DNA of 22,374 bases. Source: a virus. The stretch spans positions 1 through 22,374 of the IMG/VR virus record IMGVR_UViG_3300042355_000500, one strand, 5' to 3'. Of the stretch, positions 4,702 to 6,656 are shown piece by piece. A model generated the notes under the pieces. That model was given only the letters and a program-made list of their open reading frames with translations. It had not been told where the DNA came from and searched no databases. Position numbers and translations under genes: made by a program. The number at the start of each line of letters is the position of its first letter. Positions within the stretch are counted from its first letter, which is position 1.

Positions 4702-6048
4702 GTGCGCCACATTATCATTCCGCAAGCCGAGCAGGCTGAGCGGGCGGTGCTGGGCTGCCTGTTGTTTGACCCAACCAGGGCGCTTGAGACGATCCGAGCT
4801 TGCGGGCTCCGTGCCGGGGATTTTGGCAACCCGCAACTGGGCGACATTTTGGCGGGTGCGCTGCAACTGGCAGACACTGGGACAACGCTAGACAGCATTA
4901 CCGTTTTTCGGCGACTGGCCGAGCGTGGCATCCCGGCGAGCACGATGTCCGACCTGATCGGGCCAGAATCTTTTGCTCCACTTGGCAACTGGTGCCAACT
5001 GATCCGGGAAACTGCGAGCAAAAGGGCGTTGCAGGCTAACCTTGCGCGGGCGCTCGACGCCATCAGCAACGGGCAGGCAGTTGGTGACGTTGTGACGGGG
5101 CTGGGTGAGGCGGTTGCGGTTGCCAGCGCAGCCCATGGGCTGGGCGACATTGTCCAGACGGATTTTGAGGCATTGCTGGCCTACGACACCAAACACGACC
5201 CGAACACTGTAATCGGGGATCGCTGGCTTTGTAAGGGGGGCAGCCTGCTGCTTAACGCCCAAAGCGGGATCGGCAAAAGCTCGCTGACTATGCAGCTTGC
5301 CATTGGCTGGGCGCTCGACCCAACACACGTTTTCGGCGCTGTCTGCACGTTTGGGATGAAAGCCATCAAGCCGCTTAAAAGCCTGATTGTGCAGGCCGAA
5401 AATGACATCGGTGATCAGGCGCAGATACTGCAATCGGTCGTCTGCAAGTTTGCTCGCAACAAGGCCGGGCAGGCGCTTTTGACACAGGAGGACCGCGTAA
5501 TGCTTGGGCAAAACCTGATTTTTTACCGGGACAACCTGCACGCCGGGGCTGAGTTTTTGCGGGTGCTCGAGGCGCTGGTGATCCGGCATGAGCCTGACCT
5601 AGTCTGGATCGACCCGCTGATGTGTTACGTGGGCGACGACTTGAGCGACCAAGCAGTGGTGACCGCATTTTGCAACAGCCTAAACCGCATCAGCGCCAAG
5701 TCGGGCTGCGTCATGTGTCTGATTCATCACCTTCCAAAACCCAAGGAGAACGGCGCGCGCACAGACTCCGACCTCGCTTATTCCGGCTTTGGATCGAGCG
5801 CACTGACAAACTGGGCGCGAGAGGTGGCGACAATGCAGCGGGTTGAGGCGCCAGACGGCGACCCGCCGACGTGCTCGCTGACTATGACGAAGCGGCGAAC
5901 CAGGGCGGGACTGCGAACCGCCGACGGGACCGAACCTGCGTCCCGGATCTGGATCCAGCACAGCCGCGAACAGGAGCGCCAGGGCATGGTTTGGCTCCAG
6001 TGTCACAAGCCAGTTTTTGATGACAGCGAACCCAAAAAGAGACGATGA
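4702..6048 (+). CDS. Replicative helicase-like ATPase: DnaB N-domain plus RepA/RecA-like core
   Basis: The 448-residue product starts with a DnaB N-terminal-like domain (about 7-110; QAERAVLGCLLFDP is the family signature). A RecA-fold ATPase follows with a Walker A-like loop NAQSGIGKSS (185-194; the first Gly is replaced by Ala), an AEND segment (232-235), Walker B LVWIDPL with D304, and IHHLPKP (341-347), the sensor-type motif of RepA/AAA_25 ATPases. It is most likely the phage replicative helicase or a helicase-loading ATPase. The start is GTG 4702, two bases after the previous stop. The stop overlaps the next gene's ATG. Its place directly before an initiator gene that holds iterons parallels the O/P or DnaB/initiator pairs of other phages. 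Confidence 0.85.
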   Translation: MRHIIIPQAEQAERAVLGCLLFDPTRALETIRACGLRAGDFGNPQLGDILAGALQLADTGTTLDSITVFRRLAERGIPASTMSDLIGPESFAPLGNWCQLIRETASKRALQANLARALDAISNGQAVGDVVTGLGEAVAVASAAHGLGDIVQTDFEALLAYDTKHDPNTVIGDRWLCKGGSLLLNAQSGIGKSSLTMQLAIGWALDPTHVFGAVCTFGMKAIKPLKSLIVQAENDIGDQAQILQSVVCKFARNKAGQALLTQEDRVMLGQNLIFYRDNLHAGAEFLRVLEALVIRHEPDLVWIDPLMCYVGDDLSDQAVVTAFCNSLNRISAKSGCVMCLIHHLPKPKENGARTDSDLAYSGFGSSALTNWAREVATMQRVEAPDGDPPTCSLTMTKRRTRAGLRTADGTEPASRIWIQHSREQERQGMVWLQCHKPVFDDSEPKKRR

Positions 6049-6656
6049 AACCACGAAGCGAAACACCAAAAGACGAGGGCCCCTGGGCGTGGCAGTCACG
6101 CGATGCAGCCGCCCGAGCGGGTCAAATCGGGATCAACGCCTACGCGCTTTACTGCGCGCTGACCCACTTTCAAAGCGCGGCAGGACTCGACCAAAAGAGG
6201 CGCTTCCCGGCGTCCTACGAGCAGTTGGCCGACCACGTTGGGTGCGCAAAAAACACGGTCGCGAGGTGCTTGCCAGAGTTGCAAGAAGCGGGTTTGATCC
6301 GCATCTTTTCGGGCTCGAACGGAGCCAAAAGAGCAACCCGGAACGCCTTTTTTTTGGCCTCGATTTGCCAACCCTCACAGGGTCACGGCAGACCCTCACA
6401 GGGTGAGCACGTGAAACCCTCACAGGGTCACGACGTGAAACCCTCAGAGGGTCGCAAGAAAAGAACAAAGAACAACTACACCGCGCCGCCTCAAGCGGCA
6501 GCGGGTGTAGTAGAGAGGAAAGAAGAGGAGTCCACTCGCCCGCCCTTGGGGGGCGGCGGTGGCCCCCGAGAAAACGGAGTGATGCTCGAGGTGAAATTGA
6601 CTCTCGAGCAAATCGAGGAAGGCAGGCGGCTCGCAGCCTTTCGCAACAGCCTCTAA
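6045..6656 (+). CDS. Winged-helix replication initiator (lambda O-like layout)
   Basis: In this 203-residue protein, residues about 27-105 form a helix-turn-helix/winged-helix domain: ASYEQLADHVGCAKNTVARC, then LPELQEAGLIRIF. Such domains start many phage replication proteins. Residues 110-137 are a low-complexity linker with PSQG or PSEG four times, encoded by the iterons listed separately. The last part (about 150-203) is basic or Gly-rich followed by a helix (LEQIEEGRRLAAFRNSL), perhaps a contact point for the helicase. ATG 6045 overlaps the helicase stop. A domain that binds DNA and carries its binding sites in its own gene is the lambda O arrangement. Recognition of the iterons is inferred. 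A transcription regulator is the alternative. Confidence 0.75.
   Translation: MKPRSETPKDEGPWAWQSRDAAARAGQIGINAYALYCALTHFQSAAGLDQKRRFPASYEQLADHVGCAKNTVARCLPELQEAGLIRIFSGSNGAKRATRNAFFLASICQPSQGHGRPSQGEHVKPSQGHDVKPSEGRKKRTKNNYTAPPQAAAGVVERKEEESTRPPLGGGGGPRENGVMLEVKLTLEQIEEGRRLAAFRNSL
6324..6358. repeat. Inverted repeat with T8 run beside the iterons
   Basis: GCCAAAA (6324-6330) and TTTTGGC (6352-6358) are perfect reverse complements around a 21-base loop, and the right arm lies in a run of eight T (6348-6355). It sits 12 bases left of the first iteron, inside the initiator gene. It could belong to the origin as a structured or easily melted flank, or be chance caused by Ala-Phe-Phe-Leu codons. 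Confidence 0.35.
6371..6452. repeat. Four iterons, candidate phage replication origin
   Basis: ACCCTCACAGGGT occurs exactly at 6371-6383, 6392-6404 and 6416-6428, and ACCCTCAGAGGGT at 6440-6452. Start-to-start spacing is 21, 24 and 24 bases, close to two helical turns and in frame with the gene. The fourth copy is a perfect palindrome with 6-base arms around one base; the others have 5-base arms. The flank GTGAA precedes copies 3 and 4. The sequence just after (6455-6480) is A-rich and low in GC compared with its surroundings, as expected for a melting region. Lambda iterons likewise are CCCTC...GAGGG palindromes inside gene O. Origin function is inferred. Confidence 0.7.

Follow-up and report, generated by a model that had tools for sequence, protein, structure and literature searches.

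We found that the DNA from position 6371 to about position 6566 of an uncultivated phage record is very likely a replication origin that lies inside the gene of its own initiator, the protein that would bind it and load the neighbouring helicase. The record, IMGVR_UViG_3300042355_000500 (22,374 nt, possibly a fragment), was analysed over its whole length, which we call the window. The initial annotation had proposed an in-gene origin of the lambda type on the basis of the window's letters; sequence comparison now strongly supports this idea, through a palindrome array present in 49 genes, the co-change of the recognition helix with that array, frozen synonymous sites, and an A-rich tract followed by a palindrome. 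The features of the region, with the evidence for each in brackets, are as follows.

4702..6048, plus strand: helicase gene (DnaB N-terminal domain and AAA_25) that shares 4 nt with the initiator gene (Pfam, PHROG)
6045..6656, plus strand: initiator gene, 203 aa, with an N-terminal winged helix (Pfam, PHROG, 48 relatives)
6240..6284, plus strand: recognition-helix segment, residues 66-80, KNTVARCLPEL type, class A (helix class predicts iteron class, 49/49)
6371..6383, plus strand: iteron 1, ACCCTCACAGGGT (exact sequence)
6392..6404, plus strand: iteron 2, ACCCTCACAGGGT (exact sequence)
6416..6428, plus strand: iteron 3, ACCCTCACAGGGT (exact sequence)
6440..6452, plus strand: iteron 4, ACCCTCAGAGGGT, a perfect palindrome with a single base at its centre (exact sequence)
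6453..6474, plus strand: A-rich tract without T, the presumed opening site (sequence)
6475..6511, no strand given: hairpin H1, with an outer stem of 7-8 bp, a bulge, an inner stem and the loop CTCAA (compensation, DNA fold)
6527..6566 (about), no strand given: hairpin H2, less strong than H1 and perhaps active on the minus strand (compensation, minus-strand fold)

The initiator product passed the family cut-off of HTH_36 (PF13730; 25.9 vs 25 bits) and matched PF13545 with 29.4 bits, and its PHROG matches were replication initiation or O-like families, the O-like ones at E 5e-6 and weaker. Its predicted structure, of low overall confidence (mean pLDDT 58), consists of helices and a wing up to residue 108, a disordered part encoded by the repeats, and then a single C-terminal helix. 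A sequence search of the PDB with the initiator gave no significant match, and a fold search of the PDB returned generic winged helices only. The helicase product matched PF13481 (E 6e-20) and PF00772 (E 4e-8), and in PHROG the DnaB-like and primase-helicase families. On the 5' side of the initiator gene, the window encodes the sliding clamp DnaN and a RecT-like annealing protein; ParB-like, terminase and portal genes lie 3' of it. The clamp gene, at 1612-2781, encodes a homologue of the DNA polymerase III beta clamp in which all three domains were matched, and it overlaps the preceding gene.

The array consists of four 13-bp palindromes at steps of 21/24/24, all in frame within the ORF at 6045-6656, where they encode the peptide PSQG. 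Their exact positions and spacing at 6371-6452 agreed with those in the initial annotation, which had also argued that codon use alone could not account for them. Residues 105-140 were recoded synonymously 200,000 times with the phage's codon usage, and more than one copy never arose; under the same usage, the probability of the observed codons in all four PSxG blocks was ~5e-13, so codon use is indeed insufficient. A count of the motif outside the array, proposed at the same time, found no further copy of ACCCTCANAGGGT on either strand of the 22,374-base record. When up to three mismatches were allowed, there were 12 matches vs a shuffled mean of 4.1, a number reached in 1 of 100 shuffles, and eight of the 12 were the four iteron sites counted on both strands.

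The gene was compared with 48 usable relatives from IMG/VR, giving a set of 49 genes. Three more IMG/VR scans with other class members yielded no new contigs, and the set of relatives appears saturated in this database. Species genomes gave 39 pattern matches, none confirmed as relatives, and a collection of 50,697 named-phage records gave no DNA match and a single weak protein match. Neither the place of the palindrome array nor its central codon position differed among the 49 genes. The number of iterons was mostly four, with three in relative L052 and five in L037, L074, L079 and L081; in L037 (2577-3239) the A-rich stretch ahead of H1 is also partly repeated, which looks like a duplication of part of the origin. 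The initiator and origin occupy at least two genomic contexts. The gene directly 5' of the initiator is a non-helicase gene in L022, L027, L028, L031-L035, L037, L038, L040 and L055, and also in L073, L074, L079 and L081; in at least 16 relatives, such neighbours encode products of about 190-220 aa or 385-391 aa. The 49 genes fall into seven classes by their recognition helix and repeat.

Class A: helix KNTV(A/S)RCL, repeat ACCCT-CAC-AGGGT
Class B: helix RGTV(K/N), repeat GT(A/C/T)CA-N5-TG(G/A)AC
Class C: helix RTVCR, repeat ACGCC-N5-GGCG
Class D: helix KT(I/V)QRCL, repeat GGACT-N3-AGTCC
Class E: helix RGTVRIAI, repeat AGGTC-N7-GACC
Class F: helix RTVARCL, arms of the TGACT/TGCCA type
Class G: helix ATVARCL, repeat GT(A/C)TC-N5-GA(T/G)AC

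Codon choice shows that the repeats are conserved as DNA, even though they encode PSQG in the phage studied here. Same-residue codon agreement in classes A-C was 0.97-0.99 in the iterons vs 0.51-0.62 in the N-terminal 60 codons. The spacers between the iterons (6384-6439 in the window) are constrained as well, with a synonymous-site agreement of 1.0 in classes A-C; in classes A, B, C and E they often contain CACGTG or ACGTGA. Across the 73 tabulated copies of class B, the outer bases of the arms are invariant, and the centre and the peptide vary. In one and the same class F array the repeat runs in both orientations, as TGACTGTGTGGCA and as the reverse complement TGCCACACAGTCA. We weighed the explanation that the protein needs a PSQG peptide repeat and that the DNA repeat is its by-product. 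The repeat is in frame and does encode PSQG, but the codon use discussed above would not produce such copies and already contradicts this explanation; sister classes encode other peptides at the same place (STPHGR, NAPQAR, RDCES, RSPQDL or NATQS), the class B arms are kept while the middle residues vary freely, and the inverted copies of class F give different peptides. The peptide as the cause of the array was thus ruled out by the codon statistics, the class F inversions and the variable class B centres, and we find this explanation scarcely conceivable.

We found that the class of the recognition helix predicts the class of the repeats in 49 of 49 genes, across all seven classes, and no mismatched combination of helix and repeat class occurred among them. 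When the iterons alone were clustered, the groups were identical apart from a merger of C and F at the cut used. On the tree of the neighbouring helicases, the class changed 14 times vs a shuffled mean of 15.7; since this is about as many switches as shuffled labels give, the class has been exchanged and not inherited with the neighbouring helicase. Helix and iterons co-occurred in independent pairs on supported branches in 8/8 cases for class A, 9/9 for class B and 4/4 for class C, the last being too few for significance. In pairs such as L014 and L054, identity is 87% upstream, drops to 45% across the recognition-helix DNA and 51% across the repeats, and reaches 100% from the A-rich tract on, a pattern that places the exchange boundary right at the edge of the array. 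The consistent pairing of helix and repeats is partly due to linkage, as the two lie ~100 nt apart, and given this physical closeness it is strong but not absolute evidence that they are matched. The class motifs are nearly absent outside the initiator gene. Taken together, these comparisons indicate that the recognition helix and its putative target repeats are swapped between phages as a matched set.

Next to the array, the A-rich tract is 22 bp long, with about 64% A+T, and lies within GC-rich DNA. It is A-rich in all relatives, with indels that change the frame. H1 directly follows the tract in 49 of 49 genes; its length is 34 nt in L036 and 37 nt in all the others. In an alignment of 25 distinct sequences, 97.6% of the cells were paired and 8 of the 10 pairs showed changes in both partners; two-sided changes affected 72 cells and one-sided changes none, while sliding the partner by 1-3 columns brought the 72 down to at most 14. 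H1 was retained in a different reading frame in L008, L017, L036 and L040, and its fold as DNA had an energy of -16.5 kcal/mol (z -6.6). The arm types of H1 are common to several repeat classes, which places H1 outside the exchanged cassette. For H2, 90.9% of the cells were paired, and 54 had changed on both sides vs 16 in the best slid control; H2 emerges from the sequences less strongly than do the array, the class matching, the exchange, the codon constraint and H1. The minus strand of H2 gives the better fold, and the loop formed there (mostly CTCAAG) is similar to that of H1 on the plus strand; of the mispairs in H2, 39 were A-C and 21 G-T. The mispair bias and the loop likeness hint at use of the minus strand, and we hypothesize that H1 and H2 act on opposite strands. 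We dropped the idea that the two are exact mirror copies, as the lengths of the words shared between them favoured neither orientation. The candidate origin had initially been drawn at 6371-6452; the array part of this span holds, and its limits do not, since the origin extends to H1 at 6475-6511 and probably to H2 at ~6527-6566.

Hairpins that are transcribed with the gene could also be mRNA elements, serving in pausing, stability or translation control outside any origin. Compensation is equally expected for RNA, and H2 has some G-U type pairs. Conversely, the seven outer pairs of H1 were Watson-Crick in 25 of 25 sequences, without a single G-U; we found no T-run, terminator or promoter at H1 or H2, and an Rfam search of the hairpins gave no match. 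In addition, the hairpins follow the A-rich tract, where lambda has its palindrome. We therefore consider the mRNA reading possible but doubtful. Another explanation attributes the perfect compensation of H1 to a mutational process, template switching between the arms, more than to structural selection. The total lack of one-sided intermediates is what templated correction of a quasi-palindrome would leave. Templating accounts for the mode of change but not for persistence, and the fixed place and bipartite stem in 49 of 49 genes, kept through frame changes, need selection; this explanation thus seems unlikely.

For the origin that we favour, we infer the following course of events. The winged-helix domain (residues about 15-108) would bind the four palindromes, presumably as one dimer each, and the bound initiators would build a nucleoprotein complex. 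Strain from this complex would open the adjoining A-rich tract, where the DnaB/RepA-type helicase that the phage itself encodes in the overlapping gene would be loaded. H1, and probably also H2, would be nucleic-acid structures beside the opening. Their folding on exposed strands might serve to position a helicase or primase, a role that we regard as a fair conjecture short of even chances.

The same palindromes might instead be an operator at which the protein, as a repressor, binds within its own coding sequence to control the operon, not to start replication. Its wHTH fold is that of Crp and MarR-type regulators, the sites are palindromic, and a match between helix and site would be expected here too. 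However, the array is set >300 nt into the gene and has no promoter signal in its vicinity, the PHROG matches are replication initiators, the neighbour is a helicase, and the A-rich tract and hairpins come next, as in lambda ori. We judge a purely regulatory role to be quite improbable, and autoregulation could exist in addition to the origin role. The weakest points of the origin reading are the short A-rich tract and the skew, as GC skew across the record had no clear switch and was uninformative as an origin signal. The non-helicase 5' neighbours, the marginal likeness to lambda O described below and the low-confidence structure model also count against it.

Most of what is known about phage origins inside genes comes from a few model phages. 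The 49 natural variants, with seven pairings of helix and target, provide a data set for the recognition code of winged helices, and one suited to asking whether exchange of origin specificity serves to escape competition among replicons. The hairpin kept by compensation after the A-rich tract makes the role of the palindrome at lambda ori testable. We tentatively consider, as a possibility more doubtful than not, that replication specificity here is a plug-in, a cassette of helix and matching iterons passed among lineages whose remaining replication genes are shared, and that it creates compatibility groups, with constant, strand-opposed hairpins setting helicase loading or priming on the two strands. 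If this were true, the hairpin role might also explain the palindrome beside lambda ori.

The closest likeness in layout is to lambda. The lambda iterons lie at 39034, 39054, 39078 and 39101 (steps 20/24/23) and are followed by an A-rich stretch and then a palindrome. Lambda O and P22 gene 18, whose steps are also 20/24/23, share with our phage (21/24/24) four palindromic iterons just after the winged-helix domain, inside the initiator gene, and the order of iterons, A-rich tract and palindrome is common to lambda and our phage. As among the classes described here, the arm sequence of lambdoid phages differs together with the N-terminus of O. In contrast, the A-rich tract is 38 bp in lambda vs 22 bp here, the lambda palindrome is 28 bp (arms GTCAGAG/CTCTGAC) vs 37 nt for H1, and O has 299 aa vs 203 aa. 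Among the ORFs scanned, we recognised no P gene and no O-like C-terminal domain of the kind that recruits the P loader; lambdoid phages have a P loader or a downstream helicase, whereas our phage has its own helicase upstream. Membership of the O family (PF04492) was rejected, with no Pfam match up to E 0.1 and marginal kinship to the lambda O profile in hhalign (probability 33%, 37 columns aligned). The initiator probably works like lambda O/ori, with the same layout, without being a member of the O family. The kinship of its CCCTC...GAGGG core with that of lambda, suggested in the initial annotation, is probably a coincidence, since the arms that six sister classes carry at this position are unrelated.

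Several lambdoid O genes also have a hairpin behind the A-rich tract. The hairpin is C-rich/G-rich in P22, mEp213 and phiES15, and in phage mEp043 (L098, 982-1013) there is a strong hairpin at this place even though the lambda-type palindrome has been replaced. H1 is strictly kept in our family, whereas the palindrome is broken in PhiR12_1 and Turner; we dropped the notion of a universal hairpin at this place in lambdoid O genes, as it is weak or broken in these two. Older lambda work reportedly describes a 28-bp palindrome beside ori. Passages of three papers define lambda ori as iterons and an AT-rich region and do not use the word palindrome (PMC3349717, PMC6022878, PMC7466680). Ectopic copies of lambda ori block lambda replication (PMC4488673). 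Such blocking suggests, without proof, a reason why changing specificity could pay.

The oriV of the IncQ plasmid RSF1010 combines iterons, an opened region, two hairpins on opposite strands (ssiA/ssiB) and a RepA-type helicase. An RSF1010-like placement of H1 and H2 on opposite strands would rest on loop likeness, strand stability and mispair counts. RSF1010 has a dedicated primase, whereas no primase domain was recognised in the ORFs scanned here, in a record that may be a fragment. In the RepA_N plasmid pSK41, the winged-helix N-terminal domain of the initiator binds four Rep boxes that lie within the rep gene; our phage shares boxes inside the gene by layout only, and our initiator had no Pfam match to the RepA_N domain (PF06970). 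In pPR9, ~500 bp containing the HTH_36 domain and the origin replaced those of pSK41 as a unit, and the two replicons are compatible (PMC5703833). We regard pPR9 as the best precedent for exchange of the cassette. pSK41 and pPR9 are Firmicute plasmids with another C-terminal domain, whereas the family described here is phage-borne, with many exchanges across seven classes, and has hairpins in addition.
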